Shown: one piece after another, positions 19,101 through 27,324 of the stretch
Layout of the letters: every line of letters begins with the position of its first letter
How positions within the stretch are numbered: the stretch's first letter is position 1
DNA from: Bradyrhizobium centrolobii
Lineage (GTDB): Bacteria > Pseudomonadota > Alphaproteobacteria > Rhizobiales > Xanthobacteraceae
Direction: 5' to 3'
DNA length: 64,000 bases
Assembly (NCBI RefSeq): GCF_001641635.1
Contig: NZ_LUUB01000079.1
Coordinates: 329,308 to 393,307, forward strand
Notes under the pieces: model-generated
Database searches by the model: none
The model's input: only the letters and a program-made list of their open reading frames with translations
Told to the model about the DNA's origin: nothing
Translations under genes and position numbers: made by a program

Positions 19101-21360
19101 GCTGAAGATCCCGGTCAAGCTCGAGGGTCTGAATCCCGGCGAGGACGCCAAGATCGTCATCGCGGCGGTCGATGTCGGCATCCTCAATCTCACCAACTAC
19201 AAGCCGCCAGCGCCGGACGACTATTATCTCGGCCAGCGCCGCCTGACCGCCGAGATCCGCGATCTCTACGGCCAGCTCATCGACGGCATGCAGGGCACGC
19301 GCGGCCAGATCAAGTCCGGCGGCGATGCCGGGGCGGCCGAGCTCCAGGGCTCGCCGCCCACGCAAAAGCCGCTCGCGCTCTATTCCGGCATCGTCACGGT
19401 CGGCGCTGACGGCAGCGCCGACGTGAGCTTCGACATTCCGGAGTTCGCCGGCACGGCGCGCGTGATGGCTGTGGCCTGGACCGCCACAAAACTTGGCCGT
19501 GCCAACACCGACGTCGTGATCCGCGATCCCGTGGTGCTCACCGCGACGCTGCCGCGTTTCCTGCTCAACGGTGATCACGGCACGGTCAATCTCGAGATCG
19601 ACAATGTCGAGGGGCAGGCCGGCGACTACAAGATCAACGTGACGACGGGCGGTCCGGTGAAGATGACCGGCAATCCCGCGACCACCGTCAAGCTCGCCGC
19701 CAAGCAGCGCAACTCGTTCTCGCTCGCGCTCGATGCGACGGCCGCGGGGCAGGCGACCCTCGACGTCGACATCACCGGGCCGAATGGCTTAGCGCTGGCC
19801 CGCCACTACGCACTCGACGTCAAGGCGGCGACGCAGGTGCTGGCGCGGCGCTCGATCCGTACCCTGGCGAAGGGCGAGAGCCTGACGCTGACCTCGGACA
19901 TGTTCTCCGACCTCGTGCCGGGCACCGGCAGCGTCTCGGTCTCGGCGAGCCTGTCGACCGCGCTCGATGCGGCGACGATCCTCAAGGCGCTCGACCGCTA
20001 TCCCTATGGATGCTCGGAGCAGATCACGAGCCGCGCCATGCCGCTGCTCTATGTCAACGAGCTTGCGGCCGGTGTGCATCTGGCCATGGACACCGAGGTC
20101 GATCAGCGCATCCGCGACGCGATCGAGCGGCTGCTCGCGCGCCAGGGCTCCAACGGCTCGTTCGGCCTGTGGTCGGCGGGCGGTGATGACGCCTGGCTCG
20201 ACGCCTATGTCACGGACTTCCTGACCCGGGCCCGCGAAAAGGGCTTTGTGGTGCCGGACGTGCTGTTCAAGAACGCGCTCGACCGCATCCGCAACTCCGT
20301 CGTCAACGCCAATGAGCCGGAGAAGGACGGCGGCCGCGATCTCGCCTATGGCCTCTACGTGCTGGCGCGCAATGGCGCGGCGCCGATCGGCGACCTCCGC
20401 TATCTCGCCGACACCAAGCTGAGCAACCTCGCGACGCCCATCGCAAAGTCGCAGCTCGCTGCGGCGCTGGCGCTCGTCGGCGACCGCAACCGCGCGGAGC
20501 GGGTCTATGGCGCTGCGCTCGACAGCCTCGCGCCGAAGCCGGTGCTGGAGTTCGGCCGCAGCGACTATGGCTCGCAGCTCCGCGACGCCGCGGCGCTGGT
20601 CTCGCTCGCAAGCGAAGGCAACGCGCCGAAGGCGACGCTGACGCAGGCCGTGTCGCGGGTCGAGACCGCGCGCGGGCTGACGCCGTACACCTCGACGCAG
20701 GAGAATGCGTGGCTGGTGCTGGCGGCGCGTGCGCTCGCCAAGGAGAACCTGTCGGTCGAGGTCGACGGCCAGCCGATCAAGACCGCGCTCTACCGCAGCT
20801 ACAAAGCCGCGACGCTGGAGGGCAAGCCGCTGAAGATCACGAACACCGGGGACGCGCCGGTGCAGGCGGTGGTCTCGGTCTCGGGCTCGCCGGTCACGCC
20901 GGAGCCGGCCGCCTCCAACGGCTTCAAAATCGAGCGCAGCTACTTCACGCTCGACGGCAAGTCCGCCGACATCAGCAAGGTCAAGCAGAACGATCGCTTC
21001 GCTGTGGTGTTGAAGATCACCGAGGCCAAACCGGAATTCGGCCACATCATGGTGTCGGACTATCTGCCGGCGGGCCTGGAGATCGACAATCCGAAGCTGG
21101 TGTCGTCGGGCGACAGCGGCACGCTGGACTGGATCGAGGACGGCGTAGAGGCAGAAGATACCGAATTCCGCGACGACCGCTTCACGGCGGCGGTCGACCG
21201 GGCCTCGGACGCCAAGTCGGTCTTCACCGTCGCCTATGTCGTGCGCGCGGTTTCGCCCGGCAAATACGTGCTGCCGCAGGCCTATGTCGAGGACATGTAC
21301 AATCCCTCGCGTTACGGCCGCACCGGGACGGGGACGGTCGAGGTGCGGGCGGCGAAGTGA
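16156..21360 (+). CDS. Bacterial alpha-2-macroglobulin family protein (YfhM-like)
   Basis: This 1,734-residue periplasmic protein starts with a signal peptide (VTICATLAFGLSATQAAD). It has the series of MG beta domains, an alpha-2-macroglobulin block and the thioester motif GCSEQ with Cys at about residue 1286 and Gln at 1289, followed by an alpha-toroid region (LLARQGSNGSFGLWSAGG). The family traps attacking proteases: cleavage of a bait region exposes the thioester, which binds the protease. The extra N-terminal helical region (residues 25-200) is typical of the large bacterial type. The gene for PBP1C follows, a pairing known in many bacteria where the two are thought to guard and repair the wall after outer-membrane damage. 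Confidence 0.92.
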   Translation: MIGLVRAVTICATLAFGLSATQAADKAFKRDDLADSAIKLEAQIKSEAGPVAKSNATLRTDADAAFRRSDVRSGLSVLGQIAATTPDDAGNWLRLAKVIFQITPKSSSEQTFLLERASTAAYIAYQRAGNAGEEADALAVLGKSLAERKLWRPALDALRLSLDMREVADVRGSYEKLRDEHGFRLLDYTVDSDSASPRACFQFSEELAKRTDFAPFLALAGQDKPALSAEGKQLCVDGLKHGERYNINLRAGLPSTVKEGLPKSAELNIYVRDRKPFVRFSSRAYVLPRTGQRGIPVVSVNTPAVNINVFRIGDRNLINTVVDSDFQKTLSRYQLTDLGGERGVKVWSGELATAMTLNQDVTTAFPVDQALGELLPGVYVMTAAAKGPGSDDDYQLATQWFIVSDLGVSAYSGNDGIHVFVNSLASTDPVAKAEVRLVARNNEILAARKTDESGHVLFEAGLARGEGGLSPALLTVTGEKADYAFLSLKTSAFDLSDRGVAGRAVPAGADAFVYAERGVYRSNETVFLTALLRDGQGNAVTGGPLTLVIERPDGVEFRRAVLSDQGAGGRTLSVQLNSAVPTGTWRVRAFTDPKGSSVGETTFMVEDYVPDRIEFDLSAKDKLIKANAPVELKVDGHFLYGAPASGLQLEGDMLVAPATERPGFAGYQFGVADEETTSNERTPLENLPEADANGVATFPVTLDKQPASTRPQEAQIFVRMAETGGRAVERKLVLPVAPAAAMIGVKPLFGDKNVAEGDKAEFDVVFVSPEGKTLPRDGLRYELLRMESRYQWYRQNNYWEYEPVKSTSRVADGDLVVAADKPSRISLVPQPGRYRLDVKSNDADGPVTSVQFDVGWYSDGSADTPDLLETSIDKPQYASGDTMTVSANVRTAGKLTINVLGDRLLTTQTLDVMEGTAQVKIPVGKDWGTGAYVVATLRRPLDAAAQRMPGRAIGLKWFGIDKQTRTLQVKLTPPALIRPNSRLKIPVKLEGLNPGEDAKIVIAAVDVGILNLTNYKPPAPDDYYLGQRRLTAEIRDLYGQLIDGMQGTRGQIKSGGDAGAAELQGSPPTQKPLALYSGIVTVGADGSADVSFDIPEFAGTARVMAVAWTATKLGRANTDVVIRDPVVLTATLPRFLLNGDHGTVNLEIDNVEGQAGDYKINVTTGGPVKMTGNPATTVKLAAKQRNSFSLALDATAAGQATLDVDITGPNGLALARHYALDVKAATQVLARRSIRTLAKGESLTLTSDMFSDLVPGTGSVSVSASLSTALDAATILKALDRYPYGCSEQITSRAMPLLYVNELAAGVHLAMDTEVDQRIRDAIERLLARQGSNGSFGLWSAGGDDAWLDAYVTDFLTRAREKGFVVPDVLFKNALDRIRNSVVNANEPEKDGGRDLAYGLYVLARNGAAPIGDLRYLADTKLSNLATPIAKSQLAAALALVGDRNRAERVYGAALDSLAPKPVLEFGRSDYGSQLRDAAALVSLASEGNAPKATLTQAVSRVETARGLTPYTSTQENAWLVLAARALAKENLSVEVDGQPIKTALYRSYKAATLEGKPLKITNTGDAPVQAVVSVSGSPVTPEPAASNGFKIERSYFTLDGKSADISKVKQNDRFAVVLKITEAKPEFGHIMVSDYLPAGLEIDNPKLVSSGDSGTLDWIEDGVEAEDTEFRDDRFTAAVDRASDAKSVFTVAYVVRAVSPGKYVLPQAYVEDMYNPSRYGRTGTGTVEVRAAK

Positions 21361-21402
21361 GGCGGATGGTGATATGAACGAAGGAGCCGGCCCTCAGCCT
21401 CG

Positions 21403-21480
21403 TCATTCCGGGGCGGTGCGCAGCACCGAACCCGGAATCTCGAGATTCCGGGTCTGGTCCTTCGGACCATCCCGGAATGA
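21403..21480. repeat. Palindromic repeat, CATTCCGG family (copy 2)
   Basis: This runs from TCATTCCGGGGCGG to CCATCCCGGAATGA with a central palindrome GGAATCTCGAGATTCC. Its right half (GGTCTGGTCCTTCGGACCAT) is nearly the reverse complement of the copy at 59780-59817. It sits inside a likely operon, between the macroglobulin gene and pbpC. Confidence 0.85.
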
Positions 21481-21505
21481 CCGCAGCGGAGCAGGGCGGC
21501 GCGCT

Positions 21506-23566
21506 ATGCGCGTCCTCTCCGCGCTCGCGCTCGCATTCATCCTTGCCGTCGGCGCCTCCGTCGCCTGGGTCTACTCCCTCGGGCCGCTGCCGCTCGATCA
21601 GGCTCGCGCCGTCTCCACCACCGTCGTGGATCGCAACGGAAAACTGCTGCGTGCCTATGCCATGGCCGACGGCCGCTGGCGGCTGCCGGTCGATGCCGAG
21701 GCGAACGTCGATCCAACCTATCTGAAGCTGCTGTTCGCCTATGAGGACCAGCGCTTCTATGCCCATGATGGCGTTGATCCGCTCGCGCTCGGCCGCGCCG
21801 CAGTGCAGCTTGCGACGCGCTGGCAAATCGTGTCGGGCGGCTCGACCATCACCATGCAGCTGGCGCGATTGATGGAGCCGCGGCGGCAGCGCTCCCTCTA
21901 TGCAAAGCTGCACCAGATCGTGCGCGCGATCGAGCTGGAGCGCAGCTTGAGCAAGGACCAGATCCTCGACCTCTATCTCGCGCTCGCTCCTTATGGCGGC
22001 AATCTCGAAGGCATCCGTGCCGCCTCGATCGCCTATCTCGGCAAGGAGCCGAAGCGGCTGTCGCTGGCCGAAGCCGCGCTGCTGGTCGCGCTGCCGCAAT
22101 CGCCGGAGACGCGCAGGCTCGATCGTTATCCCGAGGCAGCCCGCATCGCGCGTGACCGCGTGCTCGATCGCATGGTCGAGGAGCATCTGGTCAGCGCCGA
22201 GGATGCGAAGCAGGCCAAGGCTGCCCCCATTCCGAAGCTGCGCAAGCCGATGCCGATCCTGGCGCCGCATGCCTCCGACACTGCGCTGGCAACCTTCAAG
22301 GATACGCCGATCATCAAGCTGACGCTGGACGCCAATCTCCAGAAGGTGCTGGAGCCGCTGGCGCGCGACCGCGCCGTTGCGCTCGGACCCAACATCTCGG
22401 TCGGCATCATCGTCGTCGACAACGAGAGCGGCGACGTGCTCGCACGCGTCGGTTCGGCGGATTATTTCGACGAGAGCCGGGCAGGGCAGGTCGACATGAC
22501 CCGCGCCATCCGCTCGCCGGGCTCAACCCTCAAGCCTTTCATCTATGGGCTCGCCTTCGAGGACGGCTTCGTCCATCCCGAGAGCCTGATCGAGGACCGT
22601 CCCGTCCACTTCGGCTCTTACGCGCCGGAAAATTTCGACATGACGTTCCAGGGCACGGTGCCCGTAAGGAAGGCGCTGCAATTGTCGCTGAACGTGCCAG
22701 CGATCGTGCTGCTCGACCGCGTCGGATCGAGCCGGCTGGCGTCGCGGCTGCGGCAGGCCGGCGGCAATCTCGTTCTGCCCAAGGACGAGACCCCTGGGCT
22801 CGCGATGGGGCTCGGCGGTGTCGGCGTGACGCTCCAGGACCTTGCGCAACTCTATGCGGGCCTCGCCCGGCTCGGCACCACAAAGCCGCTGCGCGAGGTC
22901 ATGGCTGGCAAGGACGATCGCGAGCCGATGCGGCTCCTTGATCAGGTGGCGGCCTGGCAGGTCGGCAACGTGCTGCTGGGCACGCCGCCGCCGGAGAACG
23001 CGGCCCATAACCGCATCGCCTTTAAGACCGGCACGTCTTACGGCTACCGCGACGCCTGGTCGGTGGGATTTGACGGCCGCATGACCATCGGCGTCTGGGT
23101 CGGCCGGCCCGACGGTGCGCCGGTTCCCGGTCTGATCGGTCGCGTGGCCGCCGCACCCATCCTGTTCGACGCCTTTGCCCGGACCGGCAAGACGCTGGCC
23201 CCGTTGCCGAAGCCGCCCAAGGGAACCCTGGTCGCCAGCAACACTAAGCTGCCGTTGCCGCTCAAGCGGTTCCGCCCAGTCGGGGAACTCGTGCGGATCG
23301 GGGGCGAGCAGGCCCCGCACATCCAGTTCCCGCTGAACGGCTCGCGGATCGACGTAGACCGCACGGGTGGCCAGGAGGCGGCCGCCATGCCGGTCAAGGT
23401 CGCCGGCGGCGTCCTGCCGATGACGATCCTGGTCAATGGCACGTCGCTCGGGGAGATCGACGGCCGGCGCCAGCGCCTGATCGATCCGCCCGGTCCGGGG
23501 TTTGCCCGCCTGACCGTGATCGACGCCACGGGCGCGGCGGACACAGTTGTCATTCGATTTCAATGA
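21506..23566 (+). CDS. pbpC: Penicillin-binding protein 1C
   Basis: This 686-residue bifunctional wall synthase has an N-terminal anchor (residues 3-24), a GT51 transglycosylase with the catalytic Glu in AYEDQRFYAHDG (about residue 80), a transpeptidase with SxxK at Ser340 (GSTLKPF), SLN at 394 and KTGTS at 507, and the small C-terminal BiPBP_C domain typical of PBP1C. I chose the ATG at 21506; the open frame extends back to 21236 through the upstream gene and a repeat, which is not protein-like. It pairs with the macroglobulin gene upstream. Confidence 0.93.
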   Translation: MRVLSALALAFILAVGASVAWVYSLGPLPLDQARAVSTTVVDRNGKLLRAYAMADGRWRLPVDAEANVDPTYLKLLFAYEDQRFYAHDGVDPLALGRAAVQLATRWQIVSGGSTITMQLARLMEPRRQRSLYAKLHQIVRAIELERSLSKDQILDLYLALAPYGGNLEGIRAASIAYLGKEPKRLSLAEAALLVALPQSPETRRLDRYPEAARIARDRVLDRMVEEHLVSAEDAKQAKAAPIPKLRKPMPILAPHASDTALATFKDTPIIKLTLDANLQKVLEPLARDRAVALGPNISVGIIVVDNESGDVLARVGSADYFDESRAGQVDMTRAIRSPGSTLKPFIYGLAFEDGFVHPESLIEDRPVHFGSYAPENFDMTFQGTVPVRKALQLSLNVPAIVLLDRVGSSRLASRLRQAGGNLVLPKDETPGLAMGLGGVGVTLQDLAQLYAGLARLGTTKPLREVMAGKDDREPMRLLDQVAAWQVGNVLLGTPPPENAAHNRIAFKTGTSYGYRDAWSVGFDGRMTIGVWVGRPDGAPVPGLIGRVAAAPILFDAFARTGKTLAPLPKPPKGTLVASNTKLPLPLKRFRPVGELVRIGGEQAPHIQFPLNGSRIDVDRTGGQEAAAMPVKVAGGVLPMTILVNGTSLGEIDGRRQRLIDPPGPGFARLTVIDATGAADTVVIRFQ

Positions 23567-23617: not shown

Positions 23618-25360
23618 ATGCCCGAGACCTTTACCCGCCCCCGCTTTGGTCAGCCGCGCGAGCCGAAATCCCCGGTGAATCCGGGCAATCGGCTGGTGCG
23701 CCTGATCGATGCCGCCACCGCCAGCCACCCTCGTGCGGTCGGCTTTCTCGTGCTGTGCGCGCTGCTGCTTTTCCTGCCCGGCTTCTTCACCATTCCGCCG
23801 ATCGACCGCGACGAGGCTCGCTTTGCGCAGGCCACCAAGCAGATGGTCGAGAGCGGCGACTATGTCGACATCCGCTTCCAGGATGACGTCCGCTACAAGA
23901 AGCCGGTCGGCATCTACTGGCTGCAAGCTGCAGCGGTTGAAACCGCTTCGGCGCTCAGACTGCCGAAGGCCGAATTGCGCATCTGGGTCTACCGGATACC
24001 CTCGCTGATCGGCGCGATCGGCGCCGTGCTGATGACCTACTGGACCGCGCTTGGCTTCGTCACGCGGCGCGCCGCGGTGCTTGCGGCGCTGATGATGTGC
24101 GCCTCGGTGCTGCTCGGCGTGGAAGCGCGGCTCGCCAAGACTGACGCGATGCTGCTGTTCTGTGTGGTCGCGGCGATGGGCGCGATGGCTCGGGCCTATC
24201 TGTCCTGGCAGCGCGCGGAGGACCAGACGCATCCGCCCTGGAGCTGGCCCGCGATCTTCTGGACCGCGATTGCCGTCGGCATCCTGATCAAGGGGCCGCT
24301 GATCCTGATGTTCGCGGGCCTTACCGTGATCGCGCTCGCGATCCAGGACCGCGACTCCTCGTGGCTGTGGCGGCTGCGCCCGGTCTGGGGCCTGATGTGG
24401 ACGCTGGTGCTGGTGCTGCCCTGGTTCATCGCGATCTTCTGGCGCGCGGGCGATGCCTTCTTCGCCGATTCCGTCGGCGGCGACATGCTCAGCAAGATCG
24501 GCGCCCAGGAATCCCATGGCGCGCCGCCCGGGCTCTACCTGCTCCTGTTCTGGATCACCTTCTGGCCGGGCGCGCCGCTTGCGGCGATGGCTGTGCCCGC
24601 GGTCTGGCGCGCGCGCCGCGAGCCCGGCGCGCAGTTTTTGCTGGCGTGGCTGGTCCCGTCCTGGATCGTGTTCGAGGCGGTGCTGACCAAGCTGCCGCAC
24701 TACGTGCTGCCGCTCTATCCGGCGATTGCGATCCTCACGGCCGGTGCGCTGGAACGGCAGGTGCTGTCGCGGTCCTGGCTGATGCGTGGCTCGGCCTGGT
24801 GGTTCGTGATCCCGGCTGGCGGCTCGATCATCGCGGTGGTCGGCGCGGTCATGCTGACGCGGCAGCCGGCTTTCGTCGCCTGGCCGTTCATCGCGGCTTC
24901 GCTGATCTTTGGCCTGTTCGCCTGGTGGCTCTACGACAACAACCGCGCCGAGCGCTCGCTGCTCAACGCGCTGGTCGCCGCGCTGATGCTGGCGGTGGCG
25001 GTCTACGGCATTGTGCTGCCGTCGCTGACGCCGCTGTTTCCGAGCATCGAGATCGCACGCGCCTTGCGCAACGTCACCTGCGTCGGGCCGAAGGCCGCCT
25101 CCGCCGGCTATCACGAGCCGAGCCTCGTTTTCCTGACGGGCACCTCGACGCTGCTCACCGACGGTTCTGGCGCGGCAGACTTCCTGCGGCAGGGAAGCTG
25201 CCGCTTCGCGCTGATCGAGCAGCGTTCGGAGCGCAGCTTCGTGCAGCGCGCCGAGGCGATCGGGCTGCGCTACAAGGTCGGCGCGCGGATCGACGGCTAT
25301 AATTTCTCGCAAGGGCGCGCGATCTCGATTTCGATCTTCCGTTCCGAAGGCACCGAGTAG
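23618..25360 (+). CDS. ArnT/PMT-like polyprenyl-phosphate-sugar glycosyltransferase
   Basis: This 580-residue membrane protein belongs to the GT-C fold families of ArnT and protein O-mannosyltransferases, which use a polyprenyl-phosphate sugar in the periplasm. The first outer loop has the acidic catalytic motif IDRDEARFAQATKQM, followed by RYKKPVGIYWLQ, as in ArnT, and about twelve membrane helices follow. The next three genes encode a PAP2 phosphatase, a DPM1-like GT2 enzyme and a LAB_N protein, so this is the likely transferase of a lipid A or surface-glycan modification cassette. The sugar and acceptor cannot be read from sequence. The ATG at 23618 is chosen over an earlier frame start at 23582. 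Confidence 0.88.
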   Translation: MPETFTRPRFGQPREPKSPVNPGNRLVRLIDAATASHPRAVGFLVLCALLLFLPGFFTIPPIDRDEARFAQATKQMVESGDYVDIRFQDDVRYKKPVGIYWLQAAAVETASALRLPKAELRIWVYRIPSLIGAIGAVLMTYWTALGFVTRRAAVLAALMMCASVLLGVEARLAKTDAMLLFCVVAAMGAMARAYLSWQRAEDQTHPPWSWPAIFWTAIAVGILIKGPLILMFAGLTVIALAIQDRDSSWLWRLRPVWGLMWTLVLVLPWFIAIFWRAGDAFFADSVGGDMLSKIGAQESHGAPPGLYLLLFWITFWPGAPLAAMAVPAVWRARREPGAQFLLAWLVPSWIVFEAVLTKLPHYVLPLYPAIAILTAGALERQVLSRSWLMRGSAWWFVIPAGGSIIAVVGAVMLTRQPAFVAWPFIAASLIFGLFAWWLYDNNRAERSLLNALVAALMLAVAVYGIVLPSLTPLFPSIEIARALRNVTCVGPKAASAGYHEPSLVFLTGTSTLLTDGSGAADFLRQGSCRFALIEQRSERSFVQRAEAIGLRYKVGARIDGYNFSQGRAISISIFRSEGTE

Positions 25361-25361
25361 G

Positions 25362-26207
25362 ATGTCGACGCCCGCCGAGATTGCGCCTCGCGCGAGTTAT
25401 CCCGCGCAACTGGCGGCAGTGTCCGGGCGGGCGCTGGCGCAGCTTGTGCGCGCGCCATCGCACTCGCGCCGGGCGGAAGCCGCACGAAAGCTGGCGCTGC
25501 ACTCGCTCTGGCTCAGCGCGGCGGGCGCGGCTTTGATCATCGCCCTGATGCTCGCGTTCGATCTGACCGAGATCCAGTTGATGCCGGCGCGCGGCACGCC
25601 CGGCCTGTGGCCGATCCGCATCCTCACCGATTTCGGCAAGGACGAGTATGTGCTCTCGGTGCTGGCCGTCGCGCTCGTGGCCACCGCGCTCGTTGCCGCA
25701 GGCCTGCACGGCACGCGCCGCGCGCTGCTGCTCGGCCTCGGCACGCGGCTGCAATTCATCTTCCTTTCGGTGCTGGTTTCCGTCTTCGCCGGCGAAATTC
25801 TGAAATTCATCATCGGCCGCGGCCGGCCCTTCGTCGGCGGCAAGGCTGATCCGTTCAACTTCGTTCCGTTCCAGGGAACGGAGGCTTATTACAGCCTGCC
25901 GTCCGCCCACGCTGTCACGGCGTTCGCACTGGCGTTCGCGATCTCTGCGCTGTGGCCGCGCCTGCGCGTGTTCATGTTCACCTACGCGATCGTCATCCTG
26001 CTGACCCGGCTTGTGCTGCTTGCGCATCACCCGAGCGACGTCGTCGCCGGCGCCCTGGTCGGCATGGTCAGCGCCATGGCGGTCCGTTACTGGTTTGCGG
26101 CCCGCAGGCTCAGCTTCGCCATCCGCGCCGACGGCACCATTGTGCCTCTTCCGGGACCGGTCGGAGGGCGCCTCAAAAGGGTTGCCCGCGGGGCATCCGC
26201 CCCATAA
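25362..26207 (+). CDS. PAP2 family membrane phosphatase
   Basis: This 281-residue protein shows all three signature blocks of the PAP2 superfamily: KFIIGRGRP, PSAHAVTA and RLVLLAHHPSDVVAGALVG, with the catalytic His in the last. Five or six membrane helices are visible. Relatives remove phosphate from lipid A (LpxE, LpxF), undecaprenyl pyrophosphate or phosphatidate. The ATG lies one base after the ArnT-like stop, so the genes are coupled. The neighbours favour lipid A or polyprenyl lipid as substrate. Confidence 0.9.
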   Translation: MSTPAEIAPRASYPAQLAAVSGRALAQLVRAPSHSRRAEAARKLALHSLWLSAAGAALIIALMLAFDLTEIQLMPARGTPGLWPIRILTDFGKDEYVLSVLAVALVATALVAAGLHGTRRALLLGLGTRLQFIFLSVLVSVFAGEILKFIIGRGRPFVGGKADPFNFVPFQGTEAYYSLPSAHAVTAFALAFAISALWPRLRVFMFTYAIVILLTRLVLLAHHPSDVVAGALVGMVSAMAVRYWFAARRLSFAIRADGTIVPLPGPVGGRLKRVARGASAP

Positions 26208-26272
26208 AAGCGGCTGCCTGCCGGGGATGCCGGTTCCCCGGGGCAGGCCAATTCCAACCACGAGCTTTCGAT

Positions 26273-27007
26273 TTGTCGTCGTCCCAGCCCTCGGTTTCCA
26301 TTGTCGTTCCCGTGCGCAACGAAGCCGACAACATTGCGCCGCTGATCGAGGAGATCACCGCGGCGCTCGATGGCCGCTGGGCCTACGAGATCATCTACGT
26401 CAACGACGGTTCGACCGATACGACCGGCGAGCGTCTCGCTGCGATCATGAAGCAGCGCGGGAATCTGCGTCAGCTTCGTCATGCCAAATCGACCGGACAG
26501 TCGGCAGCGGTACGCAGCGGCGTGCGTGCAGCGCGCGGTGCGATCGTCGCGACGCTCGACGGCGACGGCCAGAACAATCCGGCGTTCCTACCGGACCTGA
26601 TCGCGGCGGTCGAGAAGGGCGTGCGGGTTGGGCTCGCCGCGGGCCAGCGGGTCGGGCGCAAGGACACCGGATTCAAGAAGCTCCAGTCGCGCATTGCCAA
26701 CGGCGTCCGCAGTTCCATCCTGAATGACGGTACGCGCGACACCGGCTGCGGGTTGAAGGCATTCCGGCGCGATGTCTTCCTGTTGCTGCCCTATTTCGAC
26801 GGGCTGCACCGCTTCCTGCCGGCGCTGATGCGCCGTGAAGGCTACGAGATTGCCTATGTCGACGTGATCGACCGGCCGCGCCGTTCCGGCGTGTCAAATT
26901 ACGGCTTCTTCGACCGGCTATGGATCGGGATCATGGATCTCGCCGGCGTGTGGTGGCTGATCCGCCGCAAGAAGCCGACACCCGAGGTGACCGAGGTAAC
27001 GCTTTGA
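26273..27007 (+). CDS. GT2 glycosyltransferase, dolichol-phosphate-mannose synthase-like
   Basis: This 244-residue enzyme has the GT-A nucleotide-sugar fold: SIVVPVRNEADNIAPLIEEI, IIYVNDGSTDTTGERL and ATLDGDGQNNP with the DxD-type metal motif, then DTGCGLKAFRRDVF as in DPM1/ArnC. It would load a sugar onto polyprenyl phosphate on the inner face of the membrane. No membrane helices follow the catalytic domain, as in soluble DPM1. No ATG fits, so the start is probably TTG at 26273. It feeds the ArnT-like transferase two genes upstream, by inference. Confidence 0.88.
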   Translation: MSSSQPSVSIVVPVRNEADNIAPLIEEITAALDGRWAYEIIYVNDGSTDTTGERLAAIMKQRGNLRQLRHAKSTGQSAAVRSGVRAARGAIVATLDGDGQNNPAFLPDLIAAVEKGVRVGLAAGQRVGRKDTGFKKLQSRIANGVRSSILNDGTRDTGCGLKAFRRDVFLLLPYFDGLHRFLPALMRREGYEIAYVDVIDRPRRSGVSNYGFFDRLWIGIMDLAGVWWLIRRKKPTPEVTEVTL

Positions 27008-27324
27008 TGACGAGCCTGCTGAACTACCTGCACGATGTCTTCATCGTGAAATTCGACGCCTGGGTCGCGCTCGGCTTCATTGCCCAGGCCTTCTTCACCA
27101 TGCGCTTCCTGGTGCAGTGGATCGCTTCCGAGCGCGCGCGCAAGAGCGTCGTGCCGGTCGCGTTCTGGTTCTTCTCGATCGGCGGCGGCGTGCTGCTCCT
27201 GATCTATGCGCTTTACCGCCGCGATCCCGTGTTCATCGCCGGACAGGCGTTCGGCCTGATCGTCTATTTCCGTAACGTCTACTTCATCATCCTGAACGGC
27301 AGGGCGCCGGTCGCGAGCGACTGA
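27007..27324 (+). CDS. Lipid A biosynthesis N-terminal domain (LAB_N) protein
   Basis: This 105-residue protein with three or four membrane helices carries the LAB_N pattern (FFTMRFLVQWIASERARKS and RDPVFIAGQAFGLIVYFRN). Free-standing LAB_N proteins are often found next to DPM1-like GT2 genes. Its ATG overlaps the stop of the GT2 gene by one base (TGATG), showing tight coupling. It may help the GT2 enzyme act on its lipid carrier, which is inference. Confidence 0.88.
   Translation: MTSLLNYLHDVFIVKFDAWVALGFIAQAFFTMRFLVQWIASERARKSVVPVAFWFFSIGGGVLLLIYALYRRDPVFIAGQAFGLIVYFRNVYFIILNGRAPVASD

Follow-up and report, generated by a model that had tools for sequence, protein, structure and literature searches.

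The four-gene block and its distribution

The window analysed here is a stretch of 64,000 nucleotides from the Bradyrhizobium centrolobii genome (G000, 10.1 Mb; contig NZ_LUUB01000079.1, positions 329,308 to 393,307), and at its positions 23618-27324 lie four tightly packed genes on the same strand, which are considered below as a candidate pathway for the exchange of a lipid A phosphate for a sugar. The first gene encodes a GT-C (ArnT/PMT-like) glycosyltransferase of RgtF type (23618..25360, + strand, 580 amino acids; PF02366, 2.4e-10), followed by a PAP2 membrane phosphatase of LpxE type (25362..26207, + strand, 281 amino acids; PF01569, 4.8e-23), a predicted GT2 polyprenyl-phosphate-sugar synthase (26273..27007, + strand, 244 amino acids; PF00535, 5.5e-27), and a free-standing LAB_N protein of type A (27007..27324, + strand, 105 amino acids; PF07578, 1.3e-33). 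The spacing is one base between GT-C and PAP2 and 65 bases between PAP2 and GT2, and the GT2 and LAB_N genes share one base in a TGATG overlap. The GT2 gene begins at a TTG codon, a start supported by the resulting length of 244 amino acids, which is that of the homologue in locus L355. Families and spacings as described in the initial annotation, which had been made from the DNA letters, are borne out by these coordinates and Pfam matches.

The three enzymes were also compared with the structure database PDB and checked for conserved motifs. The GT-C protein matched ArnT (5ezm, 2.4e-12), the alignment taking in both aspartate motifs, and these motifs are kept in the named loci (DRDExRF in 80/80, AKTD in 79/80); it is thus a membrane glycosyltransferase of the GT-C/ArnT type with conserved aspartates, whose gene is clustered with rgtE- and lpxE-type genes when compared with published clusters, as expected of an RgtF. 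The PAP2 protein gave a weak match to LpxE (6ebu, E 0.0021) and only sub-cut-off NCBIfam matches, to undecaprenyl-diphosphatase and PgpB models; the catalytic motifs expected of LpxE were found as Kx6RP in 80/80, PS[A/G]H in 77/80 and [S/T]Rx5Hx3D in 80/80 named loci. The GT2 enzyme, described at first as DPM1-like, does match the mannosyl enzyme DPMS (5mlz, 2.5e-14), but ArnC chains are nearer (8.5e-22, the best match); it is of the ArnC/DPM kind and carries the DxD motif expected of an RgtE, DGDGQN being kept in 80/80 named loci. Furthermore, a simple hydrophobicity scan found no hydrophobic segment in this protein and no membrane helix is predicted; since the scan under-calls helices (one in LAB_N, where the structure model has three), this call rests also on the short C-terminus. 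The 244-residue protein does not match the length of Rhizobium leguminosarum RgtE (338 amino acids, with room for C-terminal helices) and resembles the 244-residue form of Mesorhizobium loti RgtE.

Scanning named genomes with the GT-C protein returned 474 relatives; the best 80 of these are the named loci counted here, and they overlap in part with 33 fetched Bradyrhizobium genomes. PAP2 and GT2 stand beside GT-C in all 80 loci and LAB_N in 79, so that all four genes are present in 79/80, the exception (L169) being a contig that ends after GT2; among these 80, the nearest relative by GT-C was Bradyrhizobium neotropicale (97%). Within the genus, 34 of 35 genomes had a GT-C match, and the four genes were complete in 33/33 fetched genomes, counting G031 despite its split GT-C gene and leaving out one match that is only partial and sits where a contig stops. 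The retention of all four genes in 79/80 named loci and in every fetched Bradyrhizobium genome indicates that the block is more than a chance arrangement. Beyond the genus, the GT-C protein occurs at family level (E<=0.001) in 179/198 genomes and 44/47 genera sampled, and at order level (E<=1e-20) in 172/397 genomes. Among 20 fetched family loci, GT2 was present in 17, LAB_N in 16, PAP2 in 13 and all four genes in 12; the corresponding 20 order loci held GT-C in 19, LAB_N in 15 and all four genes in 11.

Several individual loci depart from the common arrangement. A frame break splits the GT-C gene of G031 (L071) in an otherwise intact cassette, as a pseudogene or by sequencing error. PAP2 is missing from the cassettes of L310 and L311 (probably Nitrobacter) and L319-L321, where the space between GT-C and GT2 is either just a short gap or holds no frame resembling PAP2. 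In two genomes of family f11, PAP2 and GT2 lie in a single open frame (L366 6156-7769, 538 amino acids; L373 6326-7987, 554 amino acids), which is likely a fusion of phosphatase and carrier-sugar synthase. A second GT-C copy, 58-59% identical, stands without PAP2, GT2 or LAB_N beside it in L070 (G025:C1:7414400-7419500). A Bradyrhizobium cassette (92% GT-C) was also found in a record titled 'Frankia sp. RB7' (L113), either mislabelled or a mixed assembly. A scan of the locus returned no promoter-like sites and five terminator-like sites, against 4.8 expected in shuffled sequences.

Relation to the rgtE-rgtF-lpxE cluster and the predicted sugar

The rgtE-rgtF-lpxE cluster is held to strip the 1-phosphate from lipid A and to add galacturonic acid (GalA) in alpha-(1,1) linkage. 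Reportedly, to judge from the title of work by Brown in 2013, rgtF was tested through expression in R. etli. In M. loti, rgtE is described upstream of rgtF and lpxE, with an RgtF of 549 and an LpxE of 271 amino acids (PMC5644692), and a further description gives 547 amino acids for RgtF, 271 for LpxE and 244 for RgtE (PMC7795004). Like the window, the M. loti MAFF303099 cluster (MAFF_RS01125, RS01135, RS01140) comprises a 244-residue GT2, an RgtF-type GT-C protein and a PAP2 protein. In genus g276, by inference Mesorhizobium, three of four fetched loci have the order GT2, LAB_N, GT-C, PAP2 with the expected Pfam domains, that is, the M. loti order plus a LAB_N gene placed between GT2 and GT-C, and in L355 of this genus the GT2 (244 amino acids) and GT-C (549 amino acids) have the lengths published for M. 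loti RgtE and RgtF, with a LAB_N of 110 amino acids. We infer that MAFF_RS01130 of M. loti is likewise a LAB_N gene, and LAB_N appears, from these gene orders, to belong to the original published type of cluster too.

From the order, lengths and Pfam domains in g276, the block of the window is probably the Bradyrhizobium member of the rgtE-rgtF-lpxE cluster, and we hold this reading, the mechanism proposed below included, with fair though not high confidence. The Bradyrhizobium order (GT-C, PAP2, GT2, LAB_N) differs from that of M. loti, and the proteins of the window are about 41% (GT-C) and 33% (PAP2) identical to their Mesorhizobium-like counterparts. A further parallel is the cluster of Oligotropha carboxidovorans, known by its published description and belonging to the same bacterial family, where the consecutive tags OCA5_c19730-c19750 are given as rgtE-, lpxE- and rgtF-like (PMC7663294). 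Consequently, the statement in the initial annotation that no rgt or lpx genes lie in the window was wrong in substance, three genes of the block being of the rgtF, lpxE and rgtE types.

Gene content and order, conservation, active-site motifs, cluster homology and the pairing of GT2 with LAB_N are direct readings of the sequence, and the mechanism that we propose would be the following. On the cytoplasmic face, the GT2 enzyme would charge polyprenyl phosphate with a sugar, most likely GalA from UDP-GalA; LAB_N, a three-helix SemiSWEET-like protein and probably a dimer, would hold the helix-less GT2 at the membrane and/or flip the polyprenyl-phosphate-sugar; in the periplasm, the PAP2 enzyme would take off the lipid A 1-phosphate, and the GT-C enzyme would transfer the carrier-bound sugar to the freed C-1. 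Bradyrhizobium lipid A is described as phosphate-free, its proximal sugar bearing GalA and its distal sugar a mannose disaccharide (Man-Man) (PMC6102379). The exchange of phosphate for sugar on lipid A is supported by the cluster homology, and, given this chemistry, the cassette best explains the C-1 GalA of Bradyrhizobium, GalA being the predicted sugar and C-1 the predicted site; the mannoses at C-4' need other genes.

The initial annotation had proposed mannose, supplied by a DPM1-like GT2, as the sugar; placed at the distal end, this reading would have PAP2 remove the 4'-phosphate and the ArnT-like enzyme add the mannose at C-4'. A phosphate-free lipid A with a mannose disaccharide on its distal sugar and the DPMS match of the GT2 both fit such a scheme, but ArnC is the nearer relative of that enzyme, and the homologous clusters tell otherwise. 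For Oligotropha lipid A, the published account gives GalA at both C-1 and C-4', unlike the Man-Man at C-4' of Bradyrhizobium, and no backbone mannose, and that of M. loti is described as partly retaining the 4'-phosphate (PMC7663294), which argues against an action of the cluster on C-4' in that species. Moreover, other enzymes of the B. centrolobii genome could serve C-4': it holds nine PMT_2 hits and five PAP2 hits, this block included, and the other P0003-like GT2 at E<1e-20 (ArnC-like, C106:153304). At L298 5729-8392 (contig C78 of the same genome), a GT-C gene lies 10 bases from a GT2-GtrA fusion, with GtrA where the window has LAB_N; this further cassette may be what supplies the mannoses at C-4'. 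We therefore regard transfer of mannose to C-4' by the block as very unlikely. The block type does occur in a species without mannose in its lipid A backbone, Oligotropha, which tells against the mannose half of the original proposal, and a mannose-specific cassette was rejected as the main reading given that species and the presence of GT-C in 44/47 family genera; the exchange reaction itself is supported by cluster homology, so that the reaction first proposed was probably right and the sugar probably wrong.

The same C-1 reaction could have mannose as its sugar in some lineages, if donor specificity has drifted within the cassette. Bradyrhizobium elkanii lipid A is said, in the title of work by Komaniecka in 2010, to contain three mannoses, and G010, probably B. 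elkanii, carries all four genes; in this species, either the cassette adds mannose or other genes do. By GT-C, the relatives nearest to the window are found around B. neotropicale and in the japonicum group, with G010 standing apart (76% identity), and a C-1 uronic acid is described for most Bradyrhizobium (PMC7663294), so we consider drift of the donor unlikely. A target other than lipid A (hopanoid, exopolysaccharide or protein) might be suggested by the neighbourhood, with no lpx biosynthetic gene beside the cassette and a PbpC-type gene as its Bradyrhizobium neighbour, but the homology and gene order are those of a published lipid A cluster, and to such a target we give little credence. 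The PbpC-type penicillin-binding protein gene (window 21236-23566) lies directly 5' of the cassette here, in 79/80 named loci and in 16/20 family loci, but in 0/19 order loci with GT-C.

Some observations weigh against assigning the block to GalA transfer at C-1. The assignment of sugar and site depends on homology at about 40% identity, the functions of the window's enzymes being predicted from sequence; the same block seems to be present in B. elkanii, where mannose stands in place of GalA; and some relatives have GT-C without LAB_N or without PAP2. The equivalog models of NCBIfam were also not reached, with 73 bits for GT-C against ArnT (NF009784, cut-off 567) and 89 bits for GT2 against ArnC (NF007986, cut-off 529).

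LAB_N as the probable partner of GT2 and its exchange between two types

The LAB_N protein of the window scored 115.3 bits with PF07578 (gathering score 26.7) and is the sole LAB_N in its genome. In a sample of 240 alphaproteobacterial genomes, the own genome included, 65 had a LAB_N above the Pfam cut-off, and the 64 other loci were fetched. In 56 of these 64 loci, a P0003-like GT2 (E<1e-20), the kind found in the window, lay directly upstream on the same strand, the matched parts being less than 300 nucleotides apart, and the other eight weigh against a fixed association; ArnT-like proteins (by BLAST) were present within 27 of the loci and PAP2 within 11. The whole 10.1-Mb genome of B. centrolobii has only two GT2 proteins at E<1e-20, the window's included, and adjacency to LAB_N by chance is therefore very unlikely. 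Among the LAB_N-linked GT2s, no segment passed the hydrophobicity threshold in 54/56, and in 54/56 the chain had no more than 30 residues left after the catalytic match, unlike ArnC chains (about 322 amino acids), which run on for about 100 residues past it. Outside the class, a GT2 was found within the fetched 3 kb in 8 of 11 LAB_N loci examined; three of the 11 (L375, L381 and the weak L398) either belong to the class itself or fall short of the cut-off. GtrA was beside LAB_N in 0/64 loci, and LAB_N beside GtrA in 0/30 GtrA loci; a GT2 accompanied GtrA at E<1e-4 in 11 of those 30 and at E<1e-20 in none, so that GtrA goes with other GT2s. Taken together, this gene-neighbourhood evidence makes LAB_N the likely partner of the GT2.

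Two types of LAB_N, about 50-60% identical, occur at the locus. Type B predominates in named loci (71, with 8 of type A; n=79) and in the same-genus loci scored (27 and 5; n=32, G031 left out), and the family loci are divided into seven of type B and nine of type A (n=16). The types split once on the LAB_N tree, and the type label changes nine times on the ArnT tree (seven of them forced by starred branches) and eight times on the GT2 tree; these are quick trees with long outgroup branches flagged. In approximately unbiased (AU) tests, for which the groups were picked after the trees had been seen, the LAB_N data rejected the window and the japonicum group as a single clade (p 7.6e-5), and type A as a single clade was rejected by both the ArnT data (p 5e-51) and the GT2 data (p 0.003). 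The LAB_N of the window is of type A and those of its nearest relatives are of type B. At the DNA level, the window is 92.5% (ArnT), 87.6% (PAP2) and 87.9% (GT2) identical to B. neotropicale, and 66.7% in LAB_N, the next gene being at 79.4%; LAB_N alone has thus been exchanged in the lineage of the window. By the trees and identities, then, LAB_N on its own has been swapped repeatedly between two types at this locus, the lineage of the window included, and the neighbouring genes have been inherited together. Among the residue columns of GT2 and ArnT none separated the LAB_N types fully, the top scores being 0.77 and 0.85 on a scale of 0 to 1. The window mostly goes with its type-B neighbours here, so that there is no sign of co-adaptation.

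LAB_N as a possible anchor or transporter, and comparison with known systems

Pfam places LAB_N in the MtN3-like clan, together with SemiSWEET and SWEET (PMC4499210), and the more direct comparisons gave signals of different strength. Searched against the PDB, LAB_N returned sub-significant SemiSWEET chains only (E 0.16-0.17), and the NCBIfam model SemiSWEET_3 matched weakly (E 0.053, 13.8 bits, below the cut-off of 100); Pfam gave PF07578 as the sole domain and no match to GtrA (PF04138). Aligned by hhalign, a 26-row LAB_N profile matched a 27-row SemiSWEET profile at 58% probability (E 1e-4, 83 columns), falling to 14% with SemiSWEET as the query, and 11 controls (LAB_N, reversed or shuffled LAB_N, and SemiSWEET against unrelated or reversed profiles) gave 0.1-3.0%; LAB_N against GtrA and NuoK gave 3% and 0.2%. 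SWEETs have a plan of 3+1+3 helices. A single protein in L390 (1096-1887; G546:C1) resembles this plan: residues 53-131 and 174-257 each form a LAB_N domain, and the linker between them holds a hydrophobic segment. The profile comparison, the Pfam clan and the tandem protein suggest that LAB_N is a SemiSWEET-like half-transporter. It is a plausible candidate flippase for the polyprenyl-phosphate sugar, or at the least a candidate membrane partner. Of two AlphaFold2 models, the first, a weak one (mean predicted local distance difference test score 72.5, predicted template modelling score 0.45), has three helices, and its Foldseek matches at ranks 1-12 were SemiSWEETs (E 0.085 to 1.1).

Other results speak against a role in transport or in the pairing. 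Both structure models are weak (72.5 and 67.6 on the same local score); Foldseek with the second returned five matches at E 6.7 or worse and no SemiSWEET, and VIA-align of the LAB_N model placed unrelated helical proteins at the top, with no SemiSWEET among the 50 rows listed. No GT2 stands beside the tandem gene of L390, and LAB_N matches the N-terminus of the NCBIfam model of LpxB, where a sugar carrier plays no part. An anchor fits this last observation better than a flippase. In fact, with the rest of the cassette acting as proposed, LAB_N might solely anchor or regulate GT2 in the manner of a DPM2/DPM3-type subunit, flipping being left to another protein or to none; the absence of membrane helices from the partner GT2s, the LpxB match, where flipping makes no sense, the distance of the SemiSWEET homology and the weak models all favour this, and we would put it not far short of an even chance. 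A transport fold is indicated instead by the likeness to SemiSWEET and by the tandem protein, and GtrA, a proposed flippase, takes the place of LAB_N in the other cassette of the same genome; both observations are compatible with an anchor too. The whole role of LAB_N in the cassette is a prediction.

With its three enzymes, the block probably represents a lipid A pathway that is already described, seen here in a new place, and as a member of that pathway it would account for the lack of phosphate at C-1 in Bradyrhizobium lipid A. The new element is LAB_N, which matters more than the block and is the gene worth pursuing, the crossing of the membrane by polyprenyl-phosphate sugars being poorly understood. 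Its near-fixed genetic tie to a carrier-sugar enzyme offers a simple two-gene system for the study of this crossing, and its repeated one-gene exchange amounts to natural replacement experiments. Among the papers returned by searches of an open-access library, none proposes LAB_N as a flippase in its title or in the opening of its abstract.

Comparable in layout among known systems are the three-component Gtr-type and ArnC/ArnT/ArnEF systems, described as combining, as is proposed for the window, a polyprenyl-phosphate-sugar synthase, a flippase and a periplasmic GT-C enzyme, with the reservation in the same account that the activity of the proposed lipid-linked-sugar flippases has never been directly shown (PMC11127046). 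In the window, LAB_N occupies the slot of GtrA, ArnEF or a MATE protein, and the GT2 is without the membrane helices of ArnC. The gene neighbours of SemiSWEET and SWEET differ from those of LAB_N. A eukaryotic parallel, drawn by description, is MPDU1, which like LAB_N belongs to the broad PQ-loop/SWEET group and is tied to lipid-phosphate sugars; it is described as needed for the use of dolichol-phosphate-mannose, with a role not settled as of 2012 (PMC3281891), and unlike LAB_N it has seven helices. Tentatively, and with somewhat less than even confidence, we suggest that LAB_N proteins may be a family of SWEET-type half-transporters serving as dedicated flippases for the polyprenyl-phosphate sugars of helix-less GT2 enzymes, with two interchangeable types that circulate among relatives of Bradyrhizobium and take each other's place in the lipid A cassette, and that they would be a third solution next to GtrA and ArnEF/MATE and a bacterial parallel of MPDU1.

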